54,487 bases of DNA, from IMG/VR virus record IMGVR_UViG_3300030329_003281, positions 1 to 54,487 of that record. The stretch is one strand, 5' to 3'. The notes below the pieces were generated by a model that had not been told where the DNA came from, made no database searches, and was given only the letters and a program-made list of their open reading frames with translations. Source of the DNA: a virus. Of this stretch, positions 8,495 through 34,547 are shown piece by piece. Made by a program: the position numbers and the translations under genes. The stretch's first letter is position 1; every line of letters starts with the position of its first letter.

Positions 8495-8499
8495 TTCTT

Positions 8500-8507: not shown

Positions 8508-8529
8508 ATAAAAAATAACGGAGTGTTCA

Positions 8530-8997
8530 GTGGCCACAGTAGAAAGAACAGGTTCATTTAAAGAACTCACAGCACTTAGAGATGCAGAGAGACAAAGTAA
8601 CTCAACTCTAAATGTTAAGACATATAGAGACTTAGATCTGTTCTTTACACGCCGGTCAAGAGATAGCGATGTTAATGTTCTTACAAACATCACAGCAGTC
8701 AAGAGGTCAGTTCGAAATTTAGTTTTAACAAATTTCTATGAGAAGCCTTTTCATCCTGAGATTGGTTCTGGTGTCAGAGACTTGTTGTTTGAGATTGTCA
8801 GTCCATTGACTGCAATTGCGTTGGCACAATCTGTGGAAGATGTCATCAACAACTATGAGCCTAGAGCATTGTTGTTGGGTGTTGACGTTATCGATAACAT
8901 AGATGCCAATGCATATGATATAACAATAACCTTTGAAGTGATAAACATTCCAGGCGAAATAGTTCAATTAGATGTGCTATTGGAGGCATTGCGATAA
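8530..8997 (+). CDS. gp25: gp25-like baseplate wedge subunit
   Basis: The 155-aa product matches the gp25/lysozyme-like baseplate family: TFxxRS-type DLDLFFTRRSRDSDVNVL near residue 35, NITAVKRSVRNLVLTN, EKPFHPEIGSGVRDLLFE and a C-terminal YDITITFEVI strand. T4 gp25 (132 aa) is part of the wedge next to the hub and shares its fold with contractile injection systems. The start is GTG 8530 with GGAG upstream. The gene overlaps gp6 by one base, the same gp25-gp6 order as in other T4-like phages. Confidence 0.93.
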   Translation: MATVERTGSFKELTALRDAERQSNSTLNVKTYRDLDLFFTRRSRDSDVNVLTNITAVKRSVRNLVLTNFYEKPFHPEIGSGVRDLLFEIVSPLTAIALAQSVEDVINNYEPRALLLGVDVIDNIDANAYDITITFEVINIPGEIVQLDVLLEALR

Positions 8998-10907
8998 TGG
9001 CAAACAATCAAAAACTAGACATTTCTAAACTTGATTTTGATTCAATCAAGGATAATCTTAAAACCTTTTTAAAGAATCAGGATCAGTTTCTTGATTATGA
9101 TTTTGAAGGTTCCGGTATGAGTGCATTGTTAGATGTGCTCGCATATAATACTCATTATCTTAGTTTTCATGCCAATATGGTTGCTAACGAAATGTTTATC
9201 GATAGTGCAGCTCTACGTTCAAGCGTGGTGTCTCATGCCAAGACTTTAGGATATGAAGTCAGATCAGTTCGTTCTCCAAAGGCTAGAGTGAATGTATTTT
9301 TGAATGATCGTGCATTGTCTACTGCAACTATGAATGCTGGCCAGGTATTTACTACTAAGATTGATAATGTTAACTATCAATTTGTAACTGTATCTGATTT
9401 TACTGCTTCTCAATCTGGTGATGGTCTTTTGTTTGCAGATGTACCGATTTATGAGGGTACATATATCACAACTAGATATACTGTTGACAGCACTGACGTT
9501 AATCAAAAATTCTTTCTAACAAGTAATGTAGCAGACACTTCTACACTTACCGTTAAAGTACAAAATTCTTCAACCGATAGCACTACCGAAACATATACAA
9601 AAGCAACAGACATTACACAGTTGACAGGAACGAGTGCTGTTTATTATTGTCAAGAAACGGACGATGGTAGGTTTGAAGTGTACTTTGGTGATGGTGTTGT
9701 AAGTAAGGCTCTATCCGATGGCAACATAGTTATTCTTCAATACGTTGTTACTAACATTGGTGAAGCAAACGGTGCTTTTTCTTTTACTGCCTCTGGTGCA
9801 ATCAATACGGTTACTAATATTGATACGATCACTATTGAGGCTGCAAATGGTGGTGCATCAGCAGAGAGCATTCAATCCATAAAATTATCTGCTCCAATGG
9901 ACTATGCTACGCAGGGACGTTGTGTTACTGCAAATGATTATAAAGTTTATGTGAAAAAACTTTATGCTGGTGCTGAAAATGTTCAGGTGTTTGGTGGAGA
10001 AAATGGTTCTTTTGATCCTAGTCTTGGTGTTATAAGCACACCAGATTATGGTAAAGTGTTTATTTCCGTAAGTAATACTCAAGGAACAAATCTTAGTTTG
10101 CAAGAAAAGAATTCCTTGTTAAGTGCTTTGGAACCGTTTAAGGTTGCGTCGATTACACCTGTCATTGTGGATCCAGATTTTACATATGTTTTTCTTACAG
10201 TGAACTTTAAGTTTGATTCCAATCTGACAACTAAGACAAAAGATACTTTAGAGACTGAGGTTACATCTACGATTACATCATACAACACAACGGAGCTTTC
10301 AAAGTTTGATGCAGTGATAAGAAATTCTTTCCTATTAAGAACAATTGATAATACAGACAAATCTATAACAAGTAGTTCTGCTGTTCCAAGATTAGCAAAA
10401 TATTTTTCACCTACTCTGGATGTTGCTTCAGATTATAATTTATATTTTAATAATGCATTGTTTAATCCTCATAGTGGTCATAACGAAGCACTTGGTGGTA
10501 TTCTTGCCTCTTCAGGGTTTACTATCTTTGGTAGAAATGAAGAACACTTTTTCGATGATGATGGTAATGGTAATGTGAGAGCTTATTATATTGCTATAAA
10601 TGGGGATAGAGTTTATACAAATCCAAATATTGGTACAGTAAATTATACTACTGGATATATTAAAATTGATCAAATCAATATAACATCTATTTCTGATGTT
10701 GATGGCGATACTTCTACTCTTATCCGAATTGTTGTTGTGCCTAATTCACGAGATATTGTTGCACTTAGAAATCAAATTCTTGAACTTGATATGATTAATA
10801 CTACTGTAACTGGTGAGATTGATAGTATTGCTGTGGGTGATGATAGCGGCGGAGCATCTTATGTTGCTCCTTCTGCATCTGTAAGTCCAACAGGATCAGG
10901 TTATTAA
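8997..10907 (+). CDS. gp6: gp6-like baseplate wedge subunit (baseplate J family)
   Basis: The N-terminus (LDISKLDFDSIKDNLKTFLK, then DYDFEGSGMSALLDVLAYNTHY) is the signature of T4 gp6 in marine phages, followed by SAALRSSVVSHAKTLGYE. The 636-aa length is close to T4 gp6 (660). The middle contains YFGDGVVSKALSDGNIV, typical of the baseplate-J core, and the C-terminal third holds the dimerisation region. gp6 forms the inner ring of the baseplate. It follows gp25 with a stop/start overlap and is followed by the giant gene after two bases. Confidence 0.93.
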   Translation: MANNQKLDISKLDFDSIKDNLKTFLKNQDQFLDYDFEGSGMSALLDVLAYNTHYLSFHANMVANEMFIDSAALRSSVVSHAKTLGYEVRSVRSPKARVNVFLNDRALSTATMNAGQVFTTKIDNVNYQFVTVSDFTASQSGDGLLFADVPIYEGTYITTRYTVDSTDVNQKFFLTSNVADTSTLTVKVQNSSTDSTTETYTKATDITQLTGTSAVYYCQETDDGRFEVYFGDGVVSKALSDGNIVILQYVVTNIGEANGAFSFTASGAINTVTNIDTITIEAANGGASAESIQSIKLSAPMDYATQGRCVTANDYKVYVKKLYAGAENVQVFGGENGSFDPSLGVISTPDYGKVFISVSNTQGTNLSLQEKNSLLSALEPFKVASITPVIVDPDFTYVFLTVNFKFDSNLTTKTKDTLETEVTSTITSYNTTELSKFDAVIRNSFLLRTIDNTDKSITSSSAVPRLAKYFSPTLDVASDYNLYFNNALFNPHSGHNEALGGILASSGFTIFGRNEEHFFDDDGNGNVRAYYIAINGDRVYTNPNIGTVNYTTGYIKIDQINITSISDVDGDTSTLIRIVVVPNSRDIVALRNQILELDMINTTVTGEIDSIAVGDDSGGASYVAPSASVSPTGSGY

Positions 10908-10909
10908 AA

Positions 10910-13900
10910 ATGGGTGATTCAGAACTAACAACTAAGGTATCAAATCTTATTGATGGTCAGGTTCCTGATTACATTCAGGCTGACCATCCTATATTTGTTG
11001 ATTTTCTAAGACAGTATTATAAGTTTCTAGAATCTGCACAGATAACCATAACAGGAACAGTAGATCAGGTTCTGCTTGAAACCGCATCAACTAGTTTTCT
11101 TACATTAGATGGCACCGATAGATTTAGTTCAAATGATTCAAGTAAAATTGTTTTTGAGGACAGCACAGGTAAGTTTGAGGTTGGCGAAACAATCACTGGT
11201 GGGACAAGTAAAGCAACAGCTAAAATACTAGTAGACGATAACGAAACTCTTTACATTTCTGCTAATCAAAGATTTAAAGAAGGTGAAACAATCACAGGCG
11301 GCACTAGTGGTGCGACAAGCACTCTGGTTAAGTATCGTGCTAATCCTGTTCAGAACATTCAGCAACTTTTTGAGTATGCAGATCCAGACAACACAGTAGA
11401 TCATTTTCTTAATGCGTTCAAAGATTCCTTTATGGAATCCATACCAACATCTCTTGCAAGTGGTGTATCCAAACGAAACCTGATTAAACAGATTAGAGAT
11501 CTGTATGCAGCAAAGGGTACGTCAGAAGGTCATAAACTTTTCTTTAGAATTTTGTTAGGCCAAGAGGCTGAAATATATTACCCTGAAAAGGATATGGCAA
11601 GAGTGAGTGATGGTAATTGGGCAAAACCAATTATTATTCGTTGTACTTCTGATTCACCAAGCGCTGTTCCTGCTGATATGGTTGGTAAGAATATTACTGG
11701 TGCGTCTTCTGGAACAACGGCTCAGATTATTGACGAATATACTTTTCAACAAGGTTCTGATACTGTAGTTGAATTTACGCTTCGAGAAGATACTATCGAG
11801 GGCACTGGATTTACTGTATCAGAAACATTTACAGGTATATCTGAAACAGCAGATATAACAATGCAATTTACTGTGCAATCAATTGTTACTAGTATTGCGT
11901 TAACTGATGGTGGATTACTTTATGAAAAAGGTGATACATTTATATTAGATACGTCAGTTGGCAATGGCCAAGCAACTGCTCAAGTAAGTGAAATAAGTTC
12001 TGGTAATATTAGTGATGTTATTATTGATGACGCCGGCACTGGTTATAAAGTTGGTGATGCTGTTAAGTTTACAGATACAAGTGCTGATGTTGATTCTGTT
12101 TCTGCTCGTGCGTTTGTATCTGTTGTTGGTGGTAGGTTGGCCACTGAAGATAGTACAGATAGTACGGCAGAAAATATTCTTTTAGAAGATAGTACAAAAC
12201 AACAACTTGTTCATCCTAATATTTTATTGAATGGTACTGAACTAGCAACTGCTGCATCAGAACCATATGCTGTATTTGGTACTGATAAGAGGTTTAGTGA
12301 TACTAAATCATATTACTATCCTTTATATGCCGATAAAAGAAAGGCACAAGTAAGTGCAACTACAACAGGCGGAGCTATTGGTAATGTTCTTGTCGCTAAT
12401 GCTGGCTCTGGTTATTCTAATGGAACCTATTATGCAGCGGTGTCTGGTGATGGTGACAATCAAGGAACAGCCACTGGTGCAGTTTTAAGAATTGTTGTTA
12501 GAGAAAACAAAATTGCGGCCTTTGGCACTACACTCGCAACGGAAACTACGATTCATAGGTCAGGTAGTGGTTACACTTTTGGTAATGTAAGACTTACAAG
12601 TGGATTTACTTTTTCTGATCCAGAGTTAACCACTACTTCTGATATGGGTGGAAGTGATGGTTTGATATTGGTAATACCAAATGTAGCAGATGTAAAAGCT
12701 AATGCTTATGTTTTTGATGAATTTCCTAACGTAATTTTTTGGATGCCAAATGACAATCAGAATAATGCCAAGTCAACCTTTGATAGTGATATTTACGATT
12801 TGTTTGAGGCTCGTGGTTCAGTTCTTAATGAAGGGTTTCAATTACGACAAGAAGATGGAACAACTGGCACGGGATTAGGCGATAAATTATTATCTGAATC
12901 TTTAGATTTGATAACAGATACCTATGGCGATTCATCTGATTCAATTGTTTTAGAAACTGAAACCCTAAGTTCTTCTGATCAAGGCAAAATTATTAAAATT
13001 CATTTGGCCAATTCTGGTGGTGGATATACTTCACTTCCTACATTAAGTATTATTTCAGAAAATGGTGCAAATGCAAATCTTATTGCAAACACAAATACTA
13101 TTGGTAAAGTTACTGAAATTAAAATTACTGATAATGGATTTAAGTATTCAACTGCTCCAGATGTAGTAGCAAATACAAACTTTATTGTTAAAGATGTCAC
13201 TGGTACATTTGGAATAGGAAATACATTTACAACTCACAGTGGTGCGGTAGTTGCATATGATGCAGATACACAAAAACTTGAAATAGGCACTGCAACAGGT
13301 TTGGGTAATAAACCTGTTGCAACAGAAACAATTTCATTAGAACAATCTGGAACATACAATGATGGTATTCAATTAGAAGATTTTGATATTGTTGAACCAG
13401 GCAGGCCAGATCATGGTCCTGTTGCTACAATTTATAAAGTTGTTGATGAAGTCGGTTCTGGTTTCAATCTTAATAACTCTGCTGCATTAGGGACAAATAT
13501 TCTTTTAGAAAATGAAATAGGAAAAATTTTAACAGATGCTCATGATGCCGATATTTTCCAAATCAGTTTAGAAAATGATGGTGATAGACTTGAATTTAAT
13601 ATTAGATTAGAGGACAATGTTGCTGACCTTGGTGATGAGGGCCGTGGTCGTGAGAATATTTTATTAGAGTCTGGTGAAAGAGATAGAATTATTCTAGATG
13701 GTTTTAATGTCGGCGGAGACGGTTATAGCATTTCTGATGCAGAAGTTTATCTGGTCACCGAGCACATCAGTAACAATCTAATTTTTGATGGAACAGATTC
13801 CAGTGGTTCAGATGCTGGAGATAATTTCATAATTCGTGATTTTGAATTAGTTCGTGAAACTGATAATATTCTTTTAGATGGTACAGATGGTGCTCAGGCT

Positions 13901-16471
13901 GATCAAAATTCTGCTGTTCTTTTGGATGGTACAGATAGTCTTTCGGCCGATGCTGGAGATCAGTTGTTATTGCAGACTGATTCAAATGATCTTATATTCA
14001 TAAATCATGGACGGTCCATAAGACACGTCAATACTCCAAGCAGCAGACTACTTGGAGAAAATTTAGATACGTTTGTTACAGAAAAAACACCAGAGAAAAC
14101 TAATGTAACGTCTGGTGATGTTTTATATAATCAAATTATTTTTGATGGTGATCAATCTGATGGTATGGGTGATCTTCTTCTAGAAGATGGTAATAGATTA
14201 CTAAACGAAAATTCTGGTAATAATCTTCTCTTAGATGGCACAGATGATTCTTCTAGTGATGCTGGTTCCGAGTTATTGATGGAGGATGAAACTCTAGGTG
14301 ATAAACTTGTTTTAGATGGAACAAATACTTCCTCTCTCAATGCCGGCGGTGAAATTCTTACGGAGACTGATCCAAATTTTGTTAACACTGTTATAACAGA
14401 TTCCGGTGGTGCAACAGCAACAATTATTGCACAAGGCACACTAGATGCTGATACATCTATTGGAACTACTGTAACTAGAATTGGTTCATATCTTGATGAT
14501 GATAGTCATCTTAGTGAAGAAGTTATTCGTATTCAAGACTCGCATTATTATCAACAGTTTTCTTATGAGGTAAGGGTTAACGCAGCCGTATCTGAATATA
14601 TGAATGAATTGAAGGCTTCAGTTCATCCTGCTGGGTTTGCTCCATTTGGTAAGATTGCAATTGCAACAGAAATTTCAGCAGGCATTGATGTCACTGCATC
14701 TGGTGTTGTTGATGCTACAGTTGATGACACATTTACACCAGAGCTTGCCTCACTGTTCAGGTTGATATTTGGTCCAACCATAAAAGTTAATCACGGCATT
14801 CGTGAGAATGTTCTTTCAACAGACGGTGAGAGCAGTTTGTTTGATTCTCTTTTGACAGAGAATGGTGTCGCTATTGGCGATAAACTTTTAGAAGAAACAG
14901 ATGGCGATAATCTACAGTTTGAAAGTGGACTTGATATTGCGATAGAAAACTCTCCCAAATCTGGTGACGGTAGTGTTCTTTTGGAAACAGGCACTGGTGG
15001 TGGTTTGTTACTTATGGAAACAGCACTTGGTGAGAATGGCATTCTTGATAAGTCAGTTTCAAAGGTAACAAAACTTAGTGTTACGCCGCAACTTGTTAAA
15101 ACAAAAAGGTCTTATGGTGCGCCTTTATTTGCTAACACTCTGCCTGGGTCACTTTTCTTTGATAGACCTGGCGTTCAATTAGAAGCTGGTAATAGAGATA
15201 AAGCTCCTATTATTATGCAAGATAATTTGGTGTTGGATGGTTTTGATGAATACGGAACTGGTGTCGGAGATAGAATAGTCTACGAGGACTCTTTAGATAA
15301 CTCAACTTCCTCTGCTGTCAAAATTGATGAAACAGGTTCATTATCAATATCAGATATTGTTAGTCTTAACACTGTGGGTTATATTGAATCTGCTGGTGGA
15401 GATAGAAACTTTACTGAGGAGCCTGAGGGTAGTATTGTATTTGAACAAAGTGCAGCATCTGATGAATTAGTTCTAGAAGATTTCATCGTGTTTGAGTTGA
15501 ATGCAGATGAAGTAAGAAACGAGGTAATAATATCAGAGAACGGTCAAAACATATTACTAGAAACCACTGGTAGGTTTAGAGATACTGAAGTTGGCCGCAT
15601 AGCAGTTGAGTCTGGTTCTGAGGATAATGCTTTCCTTAAAAACGGTTCTGATGTCAACATTCTTAAACTGGAAACAGAGACAGATGCAAATGGTTATCTG
15701 ATAGGTGAGGATGATACCATCAGTGCTGTAGATCGTAGTATCAATGTTGTTATAGAAAGTGGTCTTCTTGAAAATGAAAAGATAATGACTGAGGGTAGTC
15801 TGATTGAATTTGAAGGTGACACTAATGTTGGAACCATTCCAGAAAGGAATTTTGGTAACAGAAACGTTGTGCCGTTCACAAGAGAAGCCAGAGTTCATAT
15901 AGAGTTAGCTGCGTCCAGATTAGCATTACAGGATGAACGTAATACTGAAGTTTTCATAGCGTTGGATGGTACAGATAGTTCATCAACAGATGCTGGTGAT
16001 AATATTATACTTAACGGTACATCTGCCGTTCTGGATATCGAGGAAAATATTCTTCTGGACGGCACTGACGCAGCACAAAGTGATGCAGGTTCAGCAGTAA
16101 TTTTGGACGCAAGTGCTTCTGGCACTGATGTTGGAGAAAATCTGTTATTGGATAGCACTGGTGGCCGGGATGCTGGTGATCGTATTCAACTTATGAGCAC
16201 AAATTATGTCTTGGTGCCAGGCAATGAAGGTGGGTTTGTTTTATTGAATGGCACAGATGGTTCATCAACAAATGCTGGTGATGAATTGTTGTTAGAATCT
16301 GGAACGCTTGAATTCTTAGAACAAAACAGTATAAATGTGTCAGTTGGTGCCACAGCAGAAGATGGCGGTCTTGCTTTACCAGAAAGTGAAATTTCAAAAG
16401 ATTTATTGGCGAATTTTGATTCTACTCTTGGAACATTTGATTCAACGACTATAACTTTTGATGCTGCATAA
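10910..16471 (+). CDS. Giant gp7-like baseplate wedge/structural protein (1853 aa)
   Basis: The N-terminal ~230 residues (VPDYIQADHPIFVDFLRQYY, then KRNLIKQIRDLYAAKGTSEG and RILLGQEAEIYYPEKDM) match a large protein that follows gp6 in marine T4-like phages, where T4 has gp7 (1032 aa). The rest is extremely repetitive: GETITGGTSGATS-type units (11170-11330), a GSGY domain also present in gp8 (about 12390-12690), and many copies of an LDGTDSSSDAGD-type repeat (13781-14380 and 15955-16310), with beta-prone LLLE strands between. A conserved-looking alpha/beta segment (YQQFSYEVRVNAAVSEYMNEL, about 14550) interrupts the repeats. A gp7 identity is inferred from position; being a virion protein is nearly certain. 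Confidence 0.75.
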   Translation: MGDSELTTKVSNLIDGQVPDYIQADHPIFVDFLRQYYKFLESAQITITGTVDQVLLETASTSFLTLDGTDRFSSNDSSKIVFEDSTGKFEVGETITGGTSKATAKILVDDNETLYISANQRFKEGETITGGTSGATSTLVKYRANPVQNIQQLFEYADPDNTVDHFLNAFKDSFMESIPTSLASGVSKRNLIKQIRDLYAAKGTSEGHKLFFRILLGQEAEIYYPEKDMARVSDGNWAKPIIIRCTSDSPSAVPADMVGKNITGASSGTTAQIIDEYTFQQGSDTVVEFTLREDTIEGTGFTVSETFTGISETADITMQFTVQSIVTSIALTDGGLLYEKGDTFILDTSVGNGQATAQVSEISSGNISDVIIDDAGTGYKVGDAVKFTDTSADVDSVSARAFVSVVGGRLATEDSTDSTAENILLEDSTKQQLVHPNILLNGTELATAASEPYAVFGTDKRFSDTKSYYYPLYADKRKAQVSATTTGGAIGNVLVANAGSGYSNGTYYAAVSGDGDNQGTATGAVLRIVVRENKIAAFGTTLATETTIHRSGSGYTFGNVRLTSGFTFSDPELTTTSDMGGSDGLILVIPNVADVKANAYVFDEFPNVIFWMPNDNQNNAKSTFDSDIYDLFEARGSVLNEGFQLRQEDGTTGTGLGDKLLSESLDLITDTYGDSSDSIVLETETLSSSDQGKIIKIHLANSGGGYTSLPTLSIISENGANANLIANTNTIGKVTEIKITDNGFKYSTAPDVVANTNFIVKDVTGTFGIGNTFTTHSGAVVAYDADTQKLEIGTATGLGNKPVATETISLEQSGTYNDGIQLEDFDIVEPGRPDHGPVATIYKVVDEVGSGFNLNNSAALGTNILLENEIGKILTDAHDADIFQISLENDGDRLEFNIRLEDNVADLGDEGRGRENILLESGERDRIILDGFNVGGDGYSISDAEVYLVTEHISNNLIFDGTDSSGSDAGDNFIIRDFELVRETDNILLDGTDGAQADQNSAVLLDGTDSLSADAGDQLLLQTDSNDLIFINHGRSIRHVNTPSSRLLGENLDTFVTEKTPEKTNVTSGDVLYNQIIFDGDQSDGMGDLLLEDGNRLLNENSGNNLLLDGTDDSSSDAGSELLMEDETLGDKLVLDGTNTSSLNAGGEILTETDPNFVNTVITDSGGATATIIAQGTLDADTSIGTTVTRIGSYLDDDSHLSEEVIRIQDSHYYQQFSYEVRVNAAVSEYMNELKASVHPAGFAPFGKIAIATEISAGIDVTASGVVDATVDDTFTPELASLFRLIFGPTIKVNHGIRENVLSTDGESSLFDSLLTENGVAIGDKLLEETDGDNLQFESGLDIAIENSPKSGDGSVLLETGTGGGLLLMETALGENGILDKSVSKVTKLSVTPQLVKTKRSYGAPLFANTLPGSLFFDRPGVQLEAGNRDKAPIIMQDNLVLDGFDEYGTGVGDRIVYEDSLDNSTSSAVKIDETGSLSISDIVSLNTVGYIESAGGDRNFTEEPEGSIVFEQSAASDELVLEDFIVFELNADEVRNEVIISENGQNILLETTGRFRDTEVGRIAVESGSEDNAFLKNGSDVNILKLETETDANGYLIGEDDTISAVDRSINVVIESGLLENEKIMTEGSLIEFEGDTNVGTIPERNFGNRNVVPFTREARVHIELAASRLALQDERNTEVFIALDGTDSSSTDAGDNIILNGTSAVLDIEENILLDGTDAAQSDAGSAVILDASASGTDVGENLLLDSTGGRDAGDRIQLMSTNYVLVPGNEGGFVLLNGTDGSSTNAGDELLLESGTLEFLEQNSINVSVGATAEDGGLALPESEISKDLLANFDSTLGTFDSTTITFDAA
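13781..14380 (+). repeat. LDGTD-type peptide repeat cluster A in the gp7-like gene
   Basis: At least six degenerate units of roughly 16-30 codons, starting near 13783, 13871, 13921, 14143, 14228 and 14311, encode (I/L/V)(L/F)DGT(D/N)-x5-DAG(D/S/G) followed by a beta-prone LLLE stretch. DNA copies are similar (TTAGATGGTACAGAT type). The same unit is found in other virion genes (see findings). Confidence 0.8.
15955..16310 (+). repeat. LDGTD-type peptide repeat cluster B in the gp7-like gene
   Basis: Four or five further units near the C-terminus: ALDGTDSSSTDAGDNIIL at about 15961, LLDGTDAAQSDAGS at about 16054, LLDSTGGRDAGD at about 16144 and LLNGTDGSSTNAGDELLL at about 16240. The spacing is 60-95 bases. 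Confidence 0.8.
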
Positions 16472-25509: not shown

Positions 25510-26652
25510 ATGGCCACAGTAACAGCATCATCAGTCTCGTCATCTGATAGTGTAGAAAGATTCAGACAAGAGTTTAATACTTTGCGCTCAGATGTTAGTA
25601 ATATTCAATCTGGCAGCTTGACTATTAGTAATGAAGCAAACAATCGTATTCTTACTTCTGTAAGTACGAATACTTTTAATGCAGAAGAGAGTTTAACCTT
25701 TGATGGATCAACTTTTGCTGTTGGTGGTGCAGTAACTGTAAGTGGTCTTACAACTCTTAGTGGTAATCTTGTTATACCTAATGCGGGAAACATTGGTTCT
25801 GATGGTGACAATGATGCTATTGCTATTGCTTCTAATGGTGTGGTAACATTTAGTCAAGCACCAGTATTTCCAGATGGTTCTCTTGCAATTGATGATTTAG
25901 ATATTGATGGTGCTACGGATATTGGTGCTGGACTTGCAGATGCAGATTTATTTATTGTTGATGATGCTGCTGGAGGTACGAATAGAAAAACAGCAGCTTC
26001 CAGAATTAAAACATATATTGCTGATGTAACACTTACAACTGCTGCACAAACAAACATTACTTCACTTGGTACGTTGACAACTCTTACGGTTGATAATATA
26101 ATTATCAATGGTACAAATATTGGCCACACGTCAGATACAGATGCAATTGCAATTGCATCTGATGGTAAAACTACATTTAGTCAACAAACAACACATTCTG
26201 GTGGTATTCTTGTTGCTGATGCTGGTAACATTGGTTCTGCTTCGGATGCAGATGCTATAGCTATATCTTCATCTGGATTAGTTACTTTGTCTCAAGATTT
26301 AACAATGGGACATGATGGTGCGGTAATAAATTTTGGTGGGGACAGTGAGATTGCACTAACTCATAATCACAATGTTGGATTGAAGATGACATCAACAGCA
26401 TATGCTCCTTTGGCTCGTAGAGGTGAGGATGTGTTTATCGTCTTGGACCAAACGGCAGCTGGAGGTACAGATGCTGGTGATAATGTGATCATGAACGCAA
26501 GTGATGGTAGTAGCACTGATGATGGTGATGATATTATTGGAGAGGATGAAGTGTTTCTACATAGTGGTATGCAAAGAAACGTTATAGAAATTCGTGATTC
26601 TGGCGGCAAATTACTTAATTCTGTTGCTGGATTTGCGCCAGGAGCAATATAA
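25510..26652 (+). CDS. Tail-fibre-like protein with LDGTD-type repeats (380 aa)
   Basis: After a helical N-terminus (SVERFRQEFNTLRSDVSNIQ) the chain becomes beta-repetitive: units GNIGSDGDNDAIAIASNGVVTFSQ, HTSDTDAIAIASDGKTTFSQ and GSASDADAIAISSSGLVTLSQ recur (about residues 96, 210 and 243; only parts quoted in each case), as in phage fibre shafts. Residues about 310-346 hold two LDGTD-like units (QTAAGGTDAGDNVIMNASDG, SSTDDGDDIIGEDE). It overlaps the next gene by one base. Probable fibre or decoration protein; no receptor-binding tip identified. Confidence 0.75.
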   Translation: MATVTASSVSSSDSVERFRQEFNTLRSDVSNIQSGSLTISNEANNRILTSVSTNTFNAEESLTFDGSTFAVGGAVTVSGLTTLSGNLVIPNAGNIGSDGDNDAIAIASNGVVTFSQAPVFPDGSLAIDDLDIDGATDIGAGLADADLFIVDDAAGGTNRKTAASRIKTYIADVTLTTAAQTNITSLGTLTTLTVDNIIINGTNIGHTSDTDAIAIASDGKTTFSQQTTHSGGILVADAGNIGSASDADAIAISSSGLVTLSQDLTMGHDGAVINFGGDSEIALTHNHNVGLKMTSTAYAPLARRGEDVFIVLDQTAAGGTDAGDNVIMNASDGSSTDDGDDIIGEDEVFLHSGMQRNVIEIRDSGGKLLNSVAGFAPGAI

Positions 26653-27611
26653 TGGCAGTTAGATCTCCTTTATACTTTAGTGGCGGCAACCTGATTGAAT
26701 TGTCTTCGGGCGAAATCAACCAGTGGTCACAGAAAGCTATTTACCAGTATAGTTTAAATCCTACTGCTGTTCTTACTGTTGTTTCCAGTAGTGGAGCGAA
26801 TATTGATGCTATCAGCGACACCAGATTGGAGGCAGGCGCAACTTCACAAAGTTCAACTGCTTTTGTTGCAGAGGCTAGCACTGCTGAACCGGGCACTGTG
26901 ACAGTTTCTTACGATAAAATCAATCTTGCCTATACTGCAACGGATGACATCTCTAATACTTCTGATACAGGAACCACCTTTCCTGTTTATTATGATAGTA
27001 GCGCCGGTGCTGTGCGGGCTATGAATTTGACAGATCTTTTGGACACTTTCATTTATCCGGCAGTGGACCTTATGATTGCTGCATCTGAGTCTTCTGATAC
27101 TGCTGGAACATATACGATAACATCATCAGCGACTGCGGCGAGTAATTACACTAAAGTCTCTGCTTCTGATGTTGCTGTTTTTACAGATACAAGAGCAGAC
27201 ACATCTGCATATAGTTCTTCGGGTATTCCTGAAACTCTTGACCAGCCAACCACGGTCACTAATTACTATCTTCATCGTAGAGATGGTTCTGATCTGACTC
27301 CAGATAGAACGCCCGTTCTTATTGATGGTTCTAATAATATTCAAGAGTTTTCCACGAGCACTCTTGCTGACCTACTAGGTGATTGGTTGAGATACACTGC
27401 GGCACATGATACTGGTGGATATAAAATTACATATTCTGTTGGAACAAGTGGTAGTGGTAATGCCAGAGGAACCAATATGCTTGATACAAAACTTAATGGT
27501 TCTGGTAATTATCAGACAAGACAGGTTGGTGATGATTATCGCTCACAAGAATTTCCAAACGGTTCTCCAGCCACAATCAGCACCTACAAACTTTTTATAA
27601 ATAAGACATAG
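26652..27611 (+). CDS. Conserved virion structural protein of marine T4-like phages (319 aa)
   Basis: The start MAVRSPLYFSGGNLIELSSG and the following IYQYSLNPTAVLTVV and ISDTRLEAGATSQSSTAF blocks match a structural protein I remember in most cyanophage-type genomes downstream of DUF4815. The C-terminus (TISTYKLFINKT) is followed by a promoter whose core overlaps codons of FINK. It is probably part of the distal tail or baseplate; no T4 equivalent is known to me. Confidence 0.75.
   Translation: MAVRSPLYFSGGNLIELSSGEINQWSQKAIYQYSLNPTAVLTVVSSSGANIDAISDTRLEAGATSQSSTAFVAEASTAEPGTVTVSYDKINLAYTATDDISNTSDTGTTFPVYYDSSAGAVRAMNLTDLLDTFIYPAVDLMIAASESSDTAGTYTITSSATAASNYTKVSASDVAVFTDTRADTSAYSSSGIPETLDQPTTVTNYYLHRRDGSDLTPDRTPVLIDGSNNIQEFSTSTLADLLGDWLRYTAAHDTGGYKITYSVGTSGSGNARGTNMLDTKLNGSGNYQTRQVGDDYRSQEFPNGSPATISTYKLFINKT
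27596..27603 (+). promoter_or_regulatory. T4-type late promoter (TATAAATA) inside a coding end
   Basis: Exact late-promoter core overlapping the last codons of the 26652-27611 gene, 18 bases upstream of ATG 27622, which has AGGAG at 27610-27614 in front of it. Confidence 0.75.
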
Positions 27612-27621
27612 GAGATAAACT

Positions 27622-28191
27622 ATGGCTGAAGAAACTGCTGCCTACACTGCGAATGGCGAACCGAAATATCCTTTTGTTGGAAGGATAGTTGAGGCTTATT
27701 ATACAAATGCGGATTTGACTGAGATTGACATCATTCACAATTATGATGTTCCTGATGATGGTGCACATACAAATGGTGGTAAAGAAGGCACGACAGTATT
27801 CTCGGTTTCCGTTGATGAAACGGATGAGCGTTTTCTAGCACTGCTTCAAGAATTTTCTTATGAGTCGCTTGATGAGTGCACAAGAAACAGAAACGAAGCA
27901 TTTCGTGAGCAATTCAGACAAGCATTCCAAGATTATGCACAAAGAAACAAAGTAGAAATTTTTGAAGAAGTTATTGTCAAAAAAGAAGTTGAAGTTGAAG
28001 ATGGGCCGTTAGATCTTATATTTGAATTTGATTCTGACAATGAAATACACAAAGATATTCTCTTTAGATTAAAACTAAAAATGTTTGAGCAAGAAGTCGT
28101 TCAAAAAAGTAAAAAGAAAAAAGCAAAAACCGATATTCGTAAAGCAGAAACATTAGGAGGAGCTCTTAAAGCATATTGCGAATTTCTTTAA
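27622..28191 (+). CDS. Hypothetical acidic/basic protein (189 aa)
   Basis: The gene has a late promoter and a good AGGAG ribosome site. The N-terminus (EPKYPFVGRIVEAYYTNADL) is beta-like; the middle has RNEAFREQFRQAFQDYAQRNK and then a charged VKKEVEVEDG linker, followed by an acidic FEFDSDNEIHKDILFRLKLK helix and a Lys-rich stretch (VVQKSKKKKAKTD). I do not recognise it. By position it is either the last tail gene or the first of the cargo block. Confidence 0.65.
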   Translation: MAEETAAYTANGEPKYPFVGRIVEAYYTNADLTEIDIIHNYDVPDDGAHTNGGKEGTTVFSVSVDETDERFLALLQEFSYESLDECTRNRNEAFREQFRQAFQDYAQRNKVEIFEEVIVKKEVEVEDGPLDLIFEFDSDNEIHKDILFRLKLKMFEQEVVQKSKKKKAKTDIRKAETLGGALKAYCEFL

Positions 28192-28220: not shown

Positions 28221-28967
28221 ATGATTGAAAATACTATACTATGTGTTAAGTGGGGTGACAAATACGATGACGAATATGTACACAATCTAAAAAAACAGTG
28301 CATGGAAAATTGCTCTGTTCCATTTAACTTCTATTGTCTCACTGACAAAAAAACAAAATCCTATGATATAACACTCCCTACAAAATGGGATCCCTACTAC
28401 GATGAAAATCGTGGTTTCTTTTGGGCTTATCGTAAGTGTTATATGTTCAAACTGAATGAAAGCATCGATGGTGATTTTATTGGTCTTGAGGGTAATAAAT
28501 TTTTGTTTCTAGATCTTGATGTTATTATTCATCAAGACTTAAAATATTTCTTTGACTTGCCTATGGATAAACCATATATTGTTCGTGGTTGGTGGAATGA
28601 TATAGGCACAGTAAAACGTAACTTTTCAAAACACAAATCTACAGCTATTAATTCTTCTGTAATTCGATGGGATCGTGGTCAACTGAAAAAGGTATACAAC
28701 GAAATCAATAAGAATGCAGAGTTGGTATTTTTTACTTATCCTAGTATGGACAACTATATCAATCATCGTTGGTATAACATATGGGATGAAGATGAAGGTT
28801 TCTTTAGAGCATTTCCAAAGGGTGACATTTATTCTTGGTATAAAGGAAACACATTTCCTGATGATATGGAAACAAGAAAATTACGAGAAGATCATAAGAT
28901 TTGTCTGTTCAACAATAGCAATTTCGGTGAAGGTATCAATGACGATGAGATAAAAGAGCTATGGTAG
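28221..28967 (+). CDS. GT-A-type glycosyltransferase-like protein
   Basis: The start TILCVKWGDKYDDEYVHNLK and the metal-binding motif FLFLDLDVIIH (Asp98-x-Asp100) are those of a GT-A-fold, nucleotide-sugar dependent glycosyltransferase of the type seen in marine phages; PYIVRGWWNDIG and SSVIRWDRGQ follow. Length is 248 aa. I choose ATG 28221, with GAGAGA just upstream, over ATG 28209. The gene ends overlapping the next by 7 bases. The related protein at 32539 shares the same layout, so the block has two transferases. Sugar and acceptor are unknown. Confidence 0.7.
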   Translation: MIENTILCVKWGDKYDDEYVHNLKKQCMENCSVPFNFYCLTDKKTKSYDITLPTKWDPYYDENRGFFWAYRKCYMFKLNESIDGDFIGLEGNKFLFLDLDVIIHQDLKYFFDLPMDKPYIVRGWWNDIGTVKRNFSKHKSTAINSSVIRWDRGQLKKVYNEINKNAELVFFTYPSMDNYINHRWYNIWDEDEGFFRAFPKGDIYSWYKGNTFPDDMETRKLREDHKICLFNNSNFGEGINDDEIKELW

Positions 28968-29617
28968 ACTATCTAAGATTTACACCAGAACTGTGTTATG
29001 ATTGGAAACAAGCCGTAGTTGATGTGGAAAGATATTATCCACATCAAATGAAACGCACACTAGATGCATCTATACCATCGCAATTAGAAAGTAAGTTGTG
29101 GATTGTTGATGAACTGAAAAAAATAGAAGACTGTTTTGATTTTCAACCAAATATTGCTTTGATAGGTGGATGGTTTGCAAATTATCTAACTCCTTTATTG
29201 ATAGATAATTTGAATGCCTGTAAAGTGGTCAATCACGAAATAGACAATGATGCAAAAGATATTAGTTATAAGTATAATAAAAGATATAAGGAGACAGGAC
29301 AATATCAATGTCTTATCAAAGATGCTATGATGAAAGAACTAGATGAAATCTTTGATATCGTTATTAACACATCTTGTGAGCATATGTTTCCTATGAAAAG
29401 ATTTGTTGAAATGAATAAACAAACATTACCTTTTAATGGGGAACAAAACAACCCTTTATATGTTTTGCAATCAACCAATGATGACCAATATGATGATCAC
29501 ATAAACTGTGTATCCTCACCAGAGGAATTGGCAGAACAAGCTGGTATCGTTCCAGAATATATGGGAAGTCTAACATTATCAAGTGGTATGGAAAGATTTA
29601 TGGTTATTGGGCGATGA
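28961..29617 (+). CDS. Methyltransferase-like protein of the cargo block
   Basis: The sequence LRFTPELCYDWKQAVVDVERY then NIALIGGWFANYLTPLL (residues about 64-80) and CKVVNHEIDNDAKDIS resembles a Rossmann-fold SAM methyltransferase with a degenerate motif I and an acidic residue after strand 2; FDIVINTSCEHMFPM would be the motif IV region. Several marine T4-like phages encode similar proteins. The glycine motif is weak, so it may have lost or changed activity. It overlaps both neighbours by a few bases. Confidence 0.5.
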   Translation: MVDYLRFTPELCYDWKQAVVDVERYYPHQMKRTLDASIPSQLESKLWIVDELKKIEDCFDFQPNIALIGGWFANYLTPLLIDNLNACKVVNHEIDNDAKDISYKYNKRYKETGQYQCLIKDAMMKELDEIFDIVINTSCEHMFPMKRFVEMNKQTLPFNGEQNNPLYVLQSTNDDQYDDHINCVSSPEELAEQAGIVPEYMGSLTLSSGMERFMVIGR

Positions 29618-30306
29618 CTCTTGTAGAATGGTGTAGAGAAAATGATATATGGTATCTGAAGATTGATATAGAGATTCCAGATATTATTATTAAAGAAGCA
29701 CAATCTGTTTATGATGAAGGGTTCTTTGTACCACATCGTGGGTCAGACGGTGATGAGTGGTGGTCATCTGCTTTACATGGTTTTGTGCATGAAGATGAGT
29801 ATGATACTTTTTCTGGTTGGCGTCATACAATGAATCCTGTTGGACATGGATACACTGAAGATACAGTTAAATGGGGTTGGACTGAAGTTGCTGAAGTAGC
29901 ACCAGAGATGAAAAGATGGTTAGAAGATTTTCCACATAAAAATTATAGACGATGTAGATTTATGTTAATAAAGTCTGGTGGAAGTATTATTGCACACCAT
30001 GACGCTCACGACGAAAGAATAAATGAAGGTAGACAGAGAAATATAGCTGCAGCGATTAATCTTGCAATCTATCAACCAAATAATTGTTATTTGAGAAGAG
30101 TTGATACAAAGGAAGAACTACCATTTGAAAATTGCACTGGTTTTTGGTTTGACAATGGAGTAACACATGAAGCTCTGAATAGTTCAGATGAAAATCGTTT
30201 TCATTTCATAATTCATGGTGGTTCAAATAAGGAAAGAAAAATGTTGATGAAAAAATCTTTGGTCAAACAATTTGGTTCTGATGTATTGAGAGAGATAGAT
30301 GATTAA
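29614..30306 (+). CDS. Aspartyl/asparaginyl beta-hydroxylase-like oxygenase
   Basis: The C-terminal half has GGSIIAHHDAHDER (HxD motif His128-x-Asp130), then INLAIYQPNNCYLRR, FDNGVTHEALN with distal His185, and Arg195 in NRFHFIIHG. This HxD...H...R order is that of the Asp/Asn beta-hydroxylase family, Fe(II)/2-oxoglutarate enzymes that hydroxylate Asp or Asn side chains in proteins or small molecules. The N-terminal half is not recognisable. It is packed between the methyltransferase-like gene and a gene of unknown function, with stop/start overlaps. Confidence 0.7.
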   Translation: MTLVEWCRENDIWYLKIDIEIPDIIIKEAQSVYDEGFFVPHRGSDGDEWWSSALHGFVHEDEYDTFSGWRHTMNPVGHGYTEDTVKWGWTEVAEVAPEMKRWLEDFPHKNYRRCRFMLIKSGGSIIAHHDAHDERINEGRQRNIAAAINLAIYQPNNCYLRRVDTKEELPFENCTGFWFDNGVTHEALNSSDENRFHFIIHGGSNKERKMLMKKSLVKQFGSDVLREIDD

Positions 30307-31714
30307 GAATTTTGAACAGTTCAGAAACCTCTGGACAAAAGAAACGTCTGGTATAAAAATTAAAGAACAGACAAAAAATCTTGTTTTCATTGTAATGTAT
30401 CCTGATAACTTAGAGTGGGATTTTGGTGTAGAGAAACAGACGCAAACAACATGTGTACAAACTTCTGGTGGTCTTACTGGCGCAGGAAGCGGCCATAATC
30501 AAATACTTTGTTATACAAGTGAAATATTTGATGTTCTTAATGATTGTGATGAATATACTCATGCTATGGTTGTAACTGCTGGTATGACGTTTTCTATGAC
30601 TGCATCTAAATCTTCAATTGAAAGTTTCTATGATTTTGCAGAAGGGAAAAGTAAATACACTCTTTCTAGTGAAGTTCTTTCTGAAATTTTGAAATGGCGT
30701 GAAGGTAAAAATGCATTTTGGTGTCGAGGACATATAATTGCAAAATCTGATAAACCAGCATATTTACACCATCAACACGTAGAAATAAATCTTGATGTTT
30801 GGAGAGAATTGGGCCGGCCTTTTATTTTTGAAAGATGGAAAAATTACGAAAGATCAGATAAGAATTATCATGATGATTATACTCCACATTGGATAAGACC
30901 AGAGGGAAGACCAACTATTTTGAATTTTGATGATAACGCGAGAAGAGTTAAATCATTCTCATATAACAATATGGAAGCTAGAACAAAAATTCAAAATAGA
31001 AGTTGGAAAATTCTTAAAGACAGAAAAGAAGGATGGCGTAATAAATTAGATGATGATAATTATTTCAAAACAACTTGTGATAGATTAAACAGTGCATTCT
31101 ATGTTGAAAACACTGAGAGTTTAGGTGCATATGCTGAGAATCTGCCTGATGAAAAATTTGATATTATTTTTTCGCCAACTGCTGGTTATGTAACAGAAGT
31201 TTTAATTGAAAAATTAAATTTTGATGGAGAGATTGTATTTTATGATTATGCTCAAAATAATGTTACAATTAAAGAGAATATTGTTGAGATGAATATGTCT
31301 ATGGAAGAAATAAAAAAATATTCTGGATACATAGACCAACCGTTTAATTTTACAAGAAGTATTTCTCAGGGCCCGCAAGTTAATATTTTGCGTAAAAGAG
31401 CAGAAACATACGGTGACTTTGAATATCTTAGAGGTCTTCAGAAAAAAATGAGAGATACCTATGATATAGAATATTGGTTAATGGATTTGATAAAACCTGA
31501 TTATAAAAAACTCAAAAACAAAATTGAGGGTAAAAGAGTTTTCTTCAATGCCAGCAATATCTTTAGTTATCATATTTCACATTCAGTTTATACCTTAGAT
31601 GCATTGGTTAGGTCTTTCAATAGATTACATAAGACACTCAGATCTTCAGAATATTATCTGTTCAGAGGAACTAGACCAACTAAACAACATTTACAATATT
31701 TTAGTAAGAAATAA
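30299..31714 (+). CDS. Unknown cargo-block protein (471 aa)
   Basis: The protein starts eight bases inside its neighbour. The first ~190 residues (LVFIVMYPDNLEWDFGVEKQ, YTHAMVVTAGMTFSM, AYLHHQHVEINLDVWRELG) recall GT-A-like sugar-transferase accessory domains, and a central segment FDIIFSPTAGYVTEVLIEK with FDGEIVFYDYAQ looks like a Rossmann-type half. The C-terminal third is basic and helical. I could not assign it to a family. The company of transferases and hydroxylases suggests a role in the same modification pathway. Confidence 0.65.
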   Translation: MIKNFEQFRNLWTKETSGIKIKEQTKNLVFIVMYPDNLEWDFGVEKQTQTTCVQTSGGLTGAGSGHNQILCYTSEIFDVLNDCDEYTHAMVVTAGMTFSMTASKSSIESFYDFAEGKSKYTLSSEVLSEILKWREGKNAFWCRGHIIAKSDKPAYLHHQHVEINLDVWRELGRPFIFERWKNYERSDKNYHDDYTPHWIRPEGRPTILNFDDNARRVKSFSYNNMEARTKIQNRSWKILKDRKEGWRNKLDDDNYFKTTCDRLNSAFYVENTESLGAYAENLPDEKFDIIFSPTAGYVTEVLIEKLNFDGEIVFYDYAQNNVTIKENIVEMNMSMEEIKKYSGYIDQPFNFTRSISQGPQVNILRKRAETYGDFEYLRGLQKKMRDTYDIEYWLMDLIKPDYKKLKNKIEGKRVFFNASNIFSYHISHSVYTLDALVRSFNRLHKTLRSSEYYLFRGTRPTKQHLQYFSKK

Positions 31715-31720
31715 ATTTTC

Positions 31721-32542
31721 ATGATAAACGATGATAAATTTGCTGAACTAGATCGGAGATATAATGCATCCAGTTATTTTAAAGTTAAACTTGAAGAAAA
31801 TTTTATTGAGTTGTCTTTAGAAGAATTAGGTTTGCCTACAGCTGATAAGTTATATGAACAAACTTTAAAGATTGTCGATGAAATTGGTGGAACAAGAGGT
31901 TGGTTGTTCGATAATAGAGAAACAAGAAGATATAAAGGATTTAGTATCTGTATAAATCCAGATGGAGACGAATATCTTCAAAGTCCCTATGCAAGTCTTG
32001 GCCATCCAGAATTAAATTGGACATACTCAAGAAAGAATAATCCTAATTTACCTTGGACAAATGCTAAGAACACTTACTATGATACCTATGGATTTAGCAC
32101 AGTTCATCCTATTGTACAGAAACACTACAAAGAATTCTTAGATTGTTTTGACTTGCAACCTACACGTTCAAGAGTAATGTGGTCATATCCTGGCCACGAA
32201 CAAGGTTGGCACTTAGATGAAGTTCTTTGGTGTGCAATTAGATTCAACATTCCTTTGGTTACTGAACCATCATATGTATTAGAAATTGATGGTGATGATG
32301 GTAATGGTAATTCTTTAACATTAACAAAACACTTAGAGGTTGGTAAAGCTTATTTTTGGAATACCAGAATACAACATAGAGTTAGAGATACTGGTGGTGC
32401 AACAAAACCAAGAGTTCATATTGTTGCTGCCTTCATTCCTTGGTTTGAGAAAAAAGGAGAGGAATGGAAAAAGAATAAGTGGTTTGGTATTCAACCCGTT
32501 GACTTGATAAAATCAAAAATGATTTTTCCTTATGCACCATGA
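31721..32542 (+). CDS. Second Asp/Asn hydroxylase-like 2OG oxygenase
   Basis: The catalytic motif is EQGWHLDEVLWCAIRFNIPL with His164-x-Asp166, followed by HLEVGKAYFWNTRIQHRVRD containing distal His219 and KPRVHIVAAF containing Arg231. This is again an HxD...H...R double-stranded beta-helix, distinct in sequence from the enzyme at 29614. It is 273 aa with a unique N-terminal half (RRYKGFSICINPDGDEYLQS). The gene overlaps the following glycosyltransferase by four bases (ATGA). The substrate is not known. Confidence 0.7.
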   Translation: MINDDKFAELDRRYNASSYFKVKLEENFIELSLEELGLPTADKLYEQTLKIVDEIGGTRGWLFDNRETRRYKGFSICINPDGDEYLQSPYASLGHPELNWTYSRKNNPNLPWTNAKNTYYDTYGFSTVHPIVQKHYKEFLDCFDLQPTRSRVMWSYPGHEQGWHLDEVLWCAIRFNIPLVTEPSYVLEIDGDDGNGNSLTLTKHLEVGKAYFWNTRIQHRVRDTGGATKPRVHIVAAFIPWFEKKGEEWKKNKWFGIQPVDLIKSKMIFPYAP

Positions 32543-33240
32543 AGATATTTGCTGTTAGAATAGGCACTAAATATGGCATTGAGTATGAAGAATACTTGGA
32601 AGATAAATTGTCCAAGTATGAGATTGTTTGGATAAGAGAGCCATACGATCCTAAAGTGACATTACAATGGAATAAGATGTGGGCGATGCAAACAGGCATT
32701 GATGAGCCTGTTTGTGTTATGGATATTGATGTTCTGCTTGTAAATGACTACGAGAAAATATTTGAGTATCCTGTAAACCCTGGCCAATTTGTTGCAATGC
32801 CTGGATGGTGGAGAGATACAAGAAAAAACAACTATGTCATAAATGGTGGATTCTTCAAGTATTATCCAAAAGATTGTCAATATATTTTTGATAAGTTTAT
32901 GTCAGATATACATGGGTGGCAAAGACATTACATAGATAACGGAACCACTGTGGGCCCGGTGAACGGAGAACAATACTTTGTTGAAGACTCGGTTAGAGAA
33001 AGATTAGAACTTATTACCTTACCAGAGAGTTGGTTTACACGATGGGTTGTAAATGAAGATATCAATTATGGTAAGAGTATGACTAAATGGCAAATTCAGA
33101 TAACAAGTAAGTATAGAAAATTAACAGGTAACGATTACATTTATCTGGGTGGTGAGTTTCATCCTGATATAAAATTTGTTCATTTTACACACAGAAATAA
33201 TAAACCACACGAATGGGAAGATTATAAGAATCATGCCTGA
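32539..33240 (+). CDS. GT-A-type glycosyltransferase-like protein (second copy)
   Basis: The start MKIFAVRIGTKYGIEYEEYL and the metal motif VCVMDIDVLLV (Asp62-x-Asp64) match the GT-A fold, and PGWWRDTRKNNYVINGGFFK parallels PYIVRGWW in the first transferase. The C-terminal DIKFVHFTHRNNKPHEWE motif, rich in His, is typical of phage and host glycosyltransferases that end with a His near the donor site. At 233 aa it is compact. ATG 32539 lies in an ATGA overlap with the hydroxylase gene. Confidence 0.75.
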   Translation: MKIFAVRIGTKYGIEYEEYLEDKLSKYEIVWIREPYDPKVTLQWNKMWAMQTGIDEPVCVMDIDVLLVNDYEKIFEYPVNPGQFVAMPGWWRDTRKNNYVINGGFFKYYPKDCQYIFDKFMSDIHGWQRHYIDNGTTVGPVNGEQYFVEDSVRERLELITLPESWFTRWVVNEDINYGKSMTKWQIQITSKYRKLTGNDYIYLGGEFHPDIKFVHFTHRNNKPHEWEDYKNHA

Positions 33241-33706
33241 AGTAAAGAGAATATCATGGGAGGAAATTAAACATATATGGGAAACACATTTATGGCCAAA
33301 CAAAGCTGGAGGTATTAAGCCATACAATAAATGGACATGGAGACATCCAAGTAGATACTTTGGTTTTTCATATAACATGGATGTGTCTCCTGTTTTCTTT
33401 GGAATACATGAGAATGATAAACTTGTAGCAGTTAATAGTTGTTTTATGAGTAACGATTGGAAAGATTCAGTATATTTTAGATCTAGAGGTTTGTGGACAG
33501 ATCCAGAATATCGTAGAAGAGGTTATGCTTCTTCAATATTACTTGAAACTATAAAGTATGCAAAGGAAAATGGTGGAACTTGGATATGGACAGTGCCTAG
33601 AAAAACTTCATTGGTTGCATATGAAAGTGTAGGTTTAGAACAATGGTCGGCTTGGATGGATGATTTAGAATTTGGTCCGAATTGTATCGCAACTAAATAC
33701 TTATAA
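33233..33706 (+). CDS. GNAT-family acetyltransferase
   Basis: From ATG 33233 (157 aa) the product has the GNAT acetyl-CoA site: SRGLWTDPEYRRRGYASSIL (motif A, R/Q-x-x-G-x-G/A variant) followed by LLETIKYAKENGG and a final WSAWMDDLEFG strand. It would acetylate an amine, for example of a sugar or protein, which fits a glycan-making block. The open frame extends upstream, but ATG 33233 sits in an 8-base overlap with the transferase stop. The stop TAA is part of the gp13 late promoter. Confidence 0.8.
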   Translation: MPEVKRISWEEIKHIWETHLWPNKAGGIKPYNKWTWRHPSRYFGFSYNMDVSPVFFGIHENDKLVAVNSCFMSNDWKDSVYFRSRGLWTDPEYRRRGYASSILLETIKYAKENGGTWIWTVPRKTSLVAYESVGLEQWSAWMDDLEFGPNCIATKYL

Positions 33707-33709
33707 ATA
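33702..33709 (+). promoter_or_regulatory. T4-type late promoter (TATAAATA)
   Basis: Exact late-promoter core overlapping the stop of the GNAT gene, 22 bases before ATG 33732, with a CGGAG ribosome site at 33719-33723. It restarts late transcription for the neck and packaging genes after the cargo block. Confidence 0.8.
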
Positions 33710-33731: not shown

Positions 33732-34547
33732 ATGGCCATTCCATCAACAAAAGCCACTTTAAAATCATATTGTTTGCGCTCTCTTGGTTTTGGTGTTATA
33801 GACATTAATGTGTCAGACGATCAGATTGATGACAGATTGGACGAGGCACTTCAATATTTTGCTGAATATCACTATGATGGTGTTGAAAGAATGTTTCTTA
33901 AACACCAAATCACTTCAGCAGACATAACCAGAGCAACATCTGACACATCTACAACTGCAACTGATGTGGTGGATAGCTCTGTCACTGCAACTTGGAAAGA
34001 AGGTAACGGTTATATTCCTGTACCGGCAGCTGTTCTTTCTGTTGTTAATGTATTCCCAATCACTGATAGCACAACGGCCAACATGTTTGATCTTAGATAT
34101 CAATTGAGATTAAATGACTTGTATGATTTTTCATCCACTTCCATTATGGAATATGAGATGACACTTCAACATTTAGATTTTCTGGAACATGTATTGGTTG
34201 GTGAAGTTCCTATTCGTTTTAGTCAGCATCAACAAAGACTTTATCTTGATATGGATTGGAATAACGATGTTGTGGCTGATGAGTATATTGTTATTGAATG
34301 TTACAGAAAACTTGATCCAGATTCGTTTACTGATGTATACAACGATATCTATCTAAAAAGATATGCAACTGCTCTGATTAAAAGACAATGGGGTGCGAAC
34401 CTATCAAAGTTTAATGGCGTAACTATGTTGGGTGGTGTTACAATGAATGGAGATAGTATCTATTCTCAGGCCACTGAAGAAATTCAATCTCTTGAGGAAC
34501 GGATTCAATTAGCATATGAGTTGCCTGTCAACTATATGATAGGATAA
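33732..34547 (+). CDS. gp13: gp13-like neck protein
   Basis: MAIPSTKATLKSYCLRSLGF with GVIDINVSDDQIDDRLDEAL is the gp13 N-terminus of T4-like phages; the C-terminal YLKRYATALIKRQWGANLSK and SIYSQATEEIQSLEERIQL are also characteristic. The 271-aa length is near T4 gp13 (309). gp13 and gp14 close the filled head and join it to the tail. It is the first gene of the canonical 13-14-15-16-17 series. Confidence 0.93.
   Translation: MAIPSTKATLKSYCLRSLGFGVIDINVSDDQIDDRLDEALQYFAEYHYDGVERMFLKHQITSADITRATSDTSTTATDVVDSSVTATWKEGNGYIPVPAAVLSVVNVFPITDSTTANMFDLRYQLRLNDLYDFSSTSIMEYEMTLQHLDFLEHVLVGEVPIRFSQHQQRLYLDMDWNNDVVADEYIVIECYRKLDPDSFTDVYNDIYLKRYATALIKRQWGANLSKFNGVTMLGGVTMNGDSIYSQATEEIQSLEERIQLAYELPVNYMIG

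Follow-up and report, generated by a model that had tools for sequence, protein, structure and literature searches.

A cassette of predicted transferase and hydroxylase genes lies ahead of gp13 in IMGVR_UViG_3300030329_003281, an IMG/VR fragment (54.5 kb; 54,487 nucleotides, hereafter the window) that derives from a marine, T4-like myovirus and whose terminase DNA is about 74% identical to that of cyanophages such as S-B43. In related phages the cassette genes carry intact catalytic motifs, follow a constant order, are present or absent in one piece, travel with two neighbouring genes, g319 and g189, and have no late promoters of their own; two of them, HYD1 and U471, are also linked to each other in bacteria. 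We favour, with modest confidence, the interpretation that the cassette modifies a tail-fibre-associated virion protein, with g319 as the first candidate, over an action on the host surface.

Seven open reading frames that a preliminary description had placed before gp13 were all found, on the plus strand: GT1 (28221..28967), a GT-A glycosyltransferase with a DxD motif (DLD); MT (28961..29617), a methyltransferase-like protein with an NTSCEHM motif; HYD1 (29614..30306), of the Fe(II)/2-oxoglutarate (2OG) Asp/Asn/Arg-hydroxylase family PF05118; U471 (30299..31714), a two-part protein; HYD2 (31721..32542), a second Fe(II)/2OG-type hydroxylase; GT2 (32539..33240), a second glycosyltransferase with a DxD motif (DID); and a GNAT acetyltransferase (33233..33706). 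As described, short overlaps (7, 4, 8, 4 and 8 nt) occupy five of the six joints, the sole non-overlapping one being U471/HYD2, with a gap of 6 nt. Against close relatives, dN/dS is mostly 0.03-0.26 across the block and at most 0.36 for GNAT, with one outlier of 0.52 at very low dS; these low values indicate that the genes are maintained under purifying selection. Silent-site divergence between the window and one relative (L002) is 1.8 for GT1, 0.02 for HYD2 and 0.05 for GNAT, and such sharp unevenness between genes of one phage pair points to gene-by-gene exchange.

The order GT1-MT-HYD1-U471-GT2, ahead of gp13 (33732-34547, plus strand; PHROG 211, E 2e-44), is constant in about 70 IMG/VR loci. 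Homologues were called by tblastn at E 1e-5 to 1e-8. Metagenomic fragments make up most of the set, and many loci were retrieved with the block proteins themselves; only the set retrieved with g319 is free of that bias. The HYD2 slot is occupied in other phages by different PF05118-type hydroxylases (families c20 and c28), and further cargo is added at the joints: twitch-family radical SAM genes (NF033640), a NodU-type carbamoyltransferase, an APS kinase-like gene, an APH-type phosphotransferase and more 2OG oxygenases. Five near relatives (L193, L194, L270, L271 and L274), whose gp13 is 92-94% identical to that of the window, present an empty site, g319-g189-GNAT-gp13, from which all six other genes are gone; the junction is compatible with the two ends having been joined directly at a short microhomology of A and T. 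Since GNAT remains where the other six genes are absent, the mobile unit comprises six genes (28221-33240), and GNAT is a resident gene outside it. In one locus (L053, 3946-4764) and 21 relatives, the place of GNAT between GT2 and gp13 is taken by c9, a QueC/PP-loop-like gene with a degenerate SSSSDS motif.

The genes upstream of the cassette, all on the plus strand, are g380 (25510..26652), which encodes a tail-fibre-like protein, g319 (26652..27611), which encodes a Ser/Thr/Asp-rich virion-region protein, and g189 (27622..28191), which encodes a protein with no assigned function and in type I loci (those with the cassette described here) always stands in the order g319-g189-cassette. We took exact matches to the T4-type consensus TATAAATA as late promoters; the plus strand of the window holds 8 of them, against 2.7 expected. 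One (27596..27603, plus strand), 26 nt before g189, makes g189 the first gene past a late promoter and would also drive the cassette; another (33702..33709, plus strand), 30 nt before gp13, overlaps the end of GNAT and closes the unit. No exact TATAAATA was found inside the seven-gene block, which agrees with the preliminary description. The same holds for relatives: a late promoter stands before 64 of 65 gp13 genes but only 1 of 69 GT2 genes, and before none of the others (GT1 0/49, MT 0/55, HYD1 0/64, U471 0/69, HYD2 0/21); apart from an internal exact TATAAATA within U471 in two near-identical loci (L032 and L033), the core contains none. As far as a promoter consensus can show, this supports a cassette that would be read late, together with the virion genes.

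Is the association with g319 and g189 more than a matter of neighbourhood? Among 34 distinct complete intervals between VrlC and gp13, 15 contain the block together with g319/g189, 17 contain neither, two are empty sites with g319/g189, and none has the block without them. The raw Fisher value of 1.5e-7 for this association is overstated, because the gp13 tree needs only 4 block changes and provides 2 supported independent contrasts; with so few contrasts, we do not take the link as resting on statistically independent cases. We give more weight to two other observations. First, in one locus (L097) the whole series tail fibre-g319-g189-477aa-GT1-MT-radical SAMs-U471-c20-HYD2-GT2-GNAT is relocated upstream of g498-VrlC, flanked by exact late promoters at 2624 and 13802; the block occupies the same type of position in L087 and L089, on shorter contigs. 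Second, when g319 alone was used as query, 42 informative loci were obtained: 17 carry the type I cassette, 21 an opposite-strand type II island with distant MT, carbamoyltransferase and radical SAM genes, and 4 are empty. A tailoring island thus follows g319 in 38 of the 42, and no other arrangement was seen; over all distinct loci the corresponding tally is 46/15/3. Furthermore, within the clade of the window, phages that have lost the cassette (two lineages, closely related to each other) carry another type of g380 C-terminal tip and one additional small gene. Protein distances are correlated beyond the backbone for GT1-MT (0.73), g189-GT2 (0.66, partial) and GT1-GT2 (0.52); with gp14, the values for U471, GT1 and GT2 are 0.01-0.11.

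Bacterial relatives also link HYD1 and U471. Of 129 Bacteriovoracia genomes, five encode relatives of U471, and exactly these five also encode clear relatives of HYD1 (E below 1e-9); in four of these the two form one fused protein, in either order (681, 711, 719 or 1072 aa), and in the fifth they are neighbours. These fusions are the strongest argument that HYD1 and U471 act in one reaction, and they also offer single-protein targets for biochemistry. They share with the phage system the presence of both domains; they differ in lying at apparently chromosomal loci, in an identity of 25-35%, and in the occasional presence of a third partner. This partner, a family of about 315 aa (regions L150 8756-11974, L085 11239-12192 and L149 9000-9941), is fused to both in one genome, and no phage homologue of it was found among the retrieved loci. 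The preliminary description had envisaged the seven genes as one tailoring pathway: fixed order, joint loss and the bacterial fusions speak for this, but GNAT falls outside the six-gene unit.

Assignments of the individual enzymes vary in precision. HYD1 lies above the Pfam cut-off for PF05118 (33.2 vs 22.6 bits); its Fe-binding HxD...H residues (H128, D130, H185) and 2OG-binding Arg (R195) are invariant in 21 sequences, and with a median pairwise identity of 0.75 it is among the best conserved cassette proteins. By family it is a putative protein Asp/Asn hydroxylase; PF05118 also includes enzymes whose substrates are lipids or free amino acids. In HYD2 the HxD...H...R motif is likewise invariant (H164, D166, H219, R231; 11 sequences), but the protein matches no Pfam family, PF05118 included, and hhalign found no link between HYD1 and HYD2 (E 0.5). 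The DxD motif is invariant across relatives in both GT1 (D98/D100) and GT2 (D62/D64). A GT1 model obtained with AlphaFold2 (AF2; predicted local distance difference test, pLDDT, 80) matches the catalytic domain of UGGT (Z 17 over 223 residues), glycogenin (Z 15.7), LARGE1 (Z 15.2) and LgtC (Z 14.6), so that the earlier designation of GT1 as a GT-A enzyme is upheld at the level of predicted structure, and GT1 may be called GT8/GT24-like. GT1 shares with these GT24/GT8 enzymes a full-length GT-A fold and the DxD motif, whereas identity is only 10-14% and neither GT1 nor GT2 has a family-level Pfam match; GT2 is homologous to GT1 by hhalign (E 2e-6).

Two proteins are methyltransferase candidates. 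For MT, profile comparison gives a weak hit on spermidine synthases (E 0.1). The AF2 model of U471 (pLDDT 89) displays a class I methyltransferase fold in residues 239-471 (Z 9-10.6), with an atypical P-loop, SPTAGY; this part is thus a methyltransferase by predicted fold, with putative S-adenosylmethionine binding and methyl transfer. In the N-terminal part, the motif N-H-D-D-Y-T-P is invariant, and structure matches are few and weak (LARGE1 and GT-A-type viral models). No hhalign link was found between U471 and MT, GT1 or GT2. Searches of Pfam, PHROGs and NCBIfam gave no name to GT1, MT, U471, HYD2 or GT2, and profiles of U471, GT1, GT2, HYD1 and HYD2 produced only chance-level matches to PDB sequences. 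The acetyltransferase assignment of GNAT is confirmed by PF00583 (34.8 vs a cut-off of 20.7 bits).

We may then picture the following mechanism. The cassette would form the downstream end of a virion-gene unit, g380-g319-g189-cassette, and be expressed late. HYD1, with U471 as its partner, and HYD2 would hydroxylate a side chain or a sugar; GT1 and GT2 would attach sugars, and the methyltransferase-like proteins may cap or modify the product. The acceptor would be a tail-fibre-associated protein, first of all g319, which is otherwise a possible partner of the cassette, and the outcome would be a decorated fibre surface with altered receptor binding, stability or recognition. The earlier suggestion that virion proteins are modified is thus retained in part: travel with g319/g189 and the late unit agree with it, but its proposed substrate, the repeats of a baseplate protein, is not supported, as discussed below.

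Several points weigh against this interpretation. Modification of a protein is a prediction from the genes, and the MT, HYD2-like and radical SAM families also appear in bacterial clusters with apparent surface-polysaccharide genes. The type II island lies on the opposite strand, and a late promoter could not be established for it. Neighbourhood linkage could account for the association of the block with g319/g189, given the overstated Fisher value. In L097, L087 and L089 no HYD1 match was detected between MT and U471, so HYD1 is dispensable there; and g319 and g189, which both persist without the cassette, do not need it.

The strongest competitor, already raised as an alternative in the preliminary description, is a live one, and we consider it possible: late in infection, the cassette may alter a glycan of the host envelope (O-chain or capsule) and so hide the receptor, limiting superinfection and the loss of progeny on debris. 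Such a role has been proposed in the literature for the island glycosyltransferases of pelagimyophages (PMC7029224). The main argument for it comes from Bacteriovoracia, where homologues of MT, twitch radical SAM, PP-loop and HYD2-like proteins are found with glycosyltransferase and UDP-galactopyranose-mutase-like genes. MT homologues occur in 6 of the 129 genomes: in one (G002), MT and a radical SAM gene of the phage cargo families stand beside a HYD1-U471 fusion, and in others MT accompanies radical SAM, PP-loop and, judging from sequence, surface-polysaccharide genes. A HYD2 homologue (G031, E 6e-15) was identified, and in one case such a homologue accompanies an MT cluster. Furthermore, in G001 and G030 the neighbours of HYD1-U471 include carbamoyltransferase, PP-loop amidotransferase-like and glycosyltransferase genes, and in the cultured phage Mosig the island has genes annotated as an epimerase and as an ArnB-like aminotransferase. 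Against a host glycan as target stand the late virion-gene transcription unit and the joint travel with g319 and g189; the block of the window includes no flippase, carrier-lipid or nucleotide-sugar gene, and the GT-A fold cannot separate protein from lipid acceptors.

Returning to modification of the virion, we also envisage, as a rather doubtful extension, a swappable tailoring module in which HYD1-U471 would hydroxylate a fibre-associated protein that is subsequently glycosylated, the chemistries (type I, type II or none) being exchanged behind a constant g319. If true, fibre surfaces would be diversified by a route other than sequence change.

Synthesis of a free small molecule (a modified sugar, amino acid or peptide), with the virion-side position as a tolerated insertion site, seems unlikely to us. 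The cargo of radical SAM, carbamoyltransferase, APS kinase-like, phosphotransferase and 2OG-oxygenase genes does resemble secondary-metabolite tailoring, and different 2OG oxygenases occupy the same place in phage HTVC008M; however, the gene order and the partners g319 and g189 are constant, and no scaffold enzyme or precursor peptide is recognisable.

The preliminary description had also raised the possibility that the block modifies the Asp/Ser/Thr-rich LDGTD repeats, which belong to the baseplate protein g1853, and asked whether the two co-occur. Relatives do not support it: the empty-site phage G146 retains the repeats without the block, and block carriers have 0-5 copies of LDG[TSF][DN] in the g1853 homologue, against 9 in the window. 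Moreover, 389 public phage records, mostly of cyanophages, contain a homologue of the baseplate protein, and searches of the same collection with HYD1, U471, HYD2 and GT2 gave no match. What speaks for these repeats as substrate is that 18 of 32 cassette-bearing loci have DGTD...AGDN-type motifs in a fibre protein or in g319, and none was found in empty-site fibres; the remaining 14 have no such motif in either protein, and we rejected the motif as a universal signature of cassette-bearing fibres. We regard the repeats as a quite improbable substrate. The number of LDGTD...DAGD repeats (window 10910-16471) varies between close relatives.

Phages employ pairs of 2OG oxygenases and glycosyltransferases for DNA modification, but hypermodification of phage DNA by the cassette is highly improbable in view of its position in the late unit, a GT-A fold where the DNA glucosyltransferases of T4 have GT-B, a PF05118 rather than a TET/JBP-type oxygenase, and the linkage to virion-region genes.

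The island corresponds to the 'host recognition cluster' (HRC) of pelagimyophages and cyanomyophages (Zaragoza-Solas et al. 2020, PMC7029224), which contains GT8-type glycosyltransferases and radical SAM cassettes and for which O-chain modification was proposed; an Asp/Asn beta-hydroxylase is listed there as core to the pelagimyophage group. Abundant 2OG oxygenases were noted in cyanomyoviruses in 2010 (PMC3037559). The window has the defining features of an HRC, namely a location between VrlC and the neck genes and a mixture of tail-fibre genes with GT8-type glycosyltransferases, with radical SAM genes in some members of the group: g2182 is homologous, over the part compared, to the annotated VrlC of HTVC008M (39% of 404 aa), and g335 matches HTVC008M gp074 (35%). 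Whereas the HRC was described as a hypervariable island with no defined pathway, the group studied here adds an ordered five-gene core, an empty site, constant g319/g189 and a relocated copy. In the literature searched, which covered few subscription papers, we saw neither the five-gene core nor the empty site, the g319/g189 linkage or the HYD1-U471 fusion described, and nothing on point concerning phage virion hydroxylation or glycosylation, or phage-borne twitch radical SAM proteins. In abundant ocean phages, glycosyltransferase, 2OG oxygenase and radical SAM genes are a striking but unexplained feature of the tail regions; with a defined core, naturally empty sites among near relatives and a constant neighbour, the question of what they do there becomes testable, with g319 as a named candidate for the substrate.

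Two cultured phages invite comparison. Mosig EXVC030M (MT647606), a Pelagibacter phage, has a g319 homologue (51%), and the tailoring island that follows encodes a distant MT (29%), a carbamoyltransferase and radical SAM proteins; it differs in that the island lies on the opposite strand, with no g189 and no match to HYD1 or U471, and includes the annotated epimerase and ArnB-like aminotransferase. A candidate late promoter for this island was rejected: the site is 13 nt from the start codon, too close, and within an A+T palindrome. HTVC008M (NC_020484) has several 2OG-Fe(II) oxygenases at the same genomic place, before gp13, but of other families, on the opposite strand, with no annotated glycosyltransferase and no HYD1/U471 match. 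In its locus (L082, 9363-11602 and 15684-17078) the minus strand carries four such oxygenases together with a gene annotated as ferrochelatase, and a gene annotated as tryptophan halogenase lies immediately ahead of the terminase large subunit.

Some loci depart from the common arrangement. In L013 (about 7223-10377), a HYD1-matching stretch is seen on both sides of a four-gene insertion (a 2OG oxygenase, two radical SAM-type genes and a SPASM-like gene), as if the end of HYD1 had been copied when the four genes went in. In L065, L066 and L067, HYD1 stands directly before gp13, without U471, MT or glycosyltransferases and next to SGNH-like genes, so it can persist without its partners; in L067 a carbamoyltransferase gene also lies beside the solitary HYD1. 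The island of some relatives contains TRAP-transporter-like genes (L070 12816-15698, L064 13315-14259, and L052): the DctP-type binding protein of L064 is a Pfam match (E 3e-44), and DctQ/DctM-like genes were recognised by eye only. Finally, one contig binned in a Flavobacteriales metagenome-assembled genome (L084) is a phage fragment of the same group, either mis-binned or host-associated.

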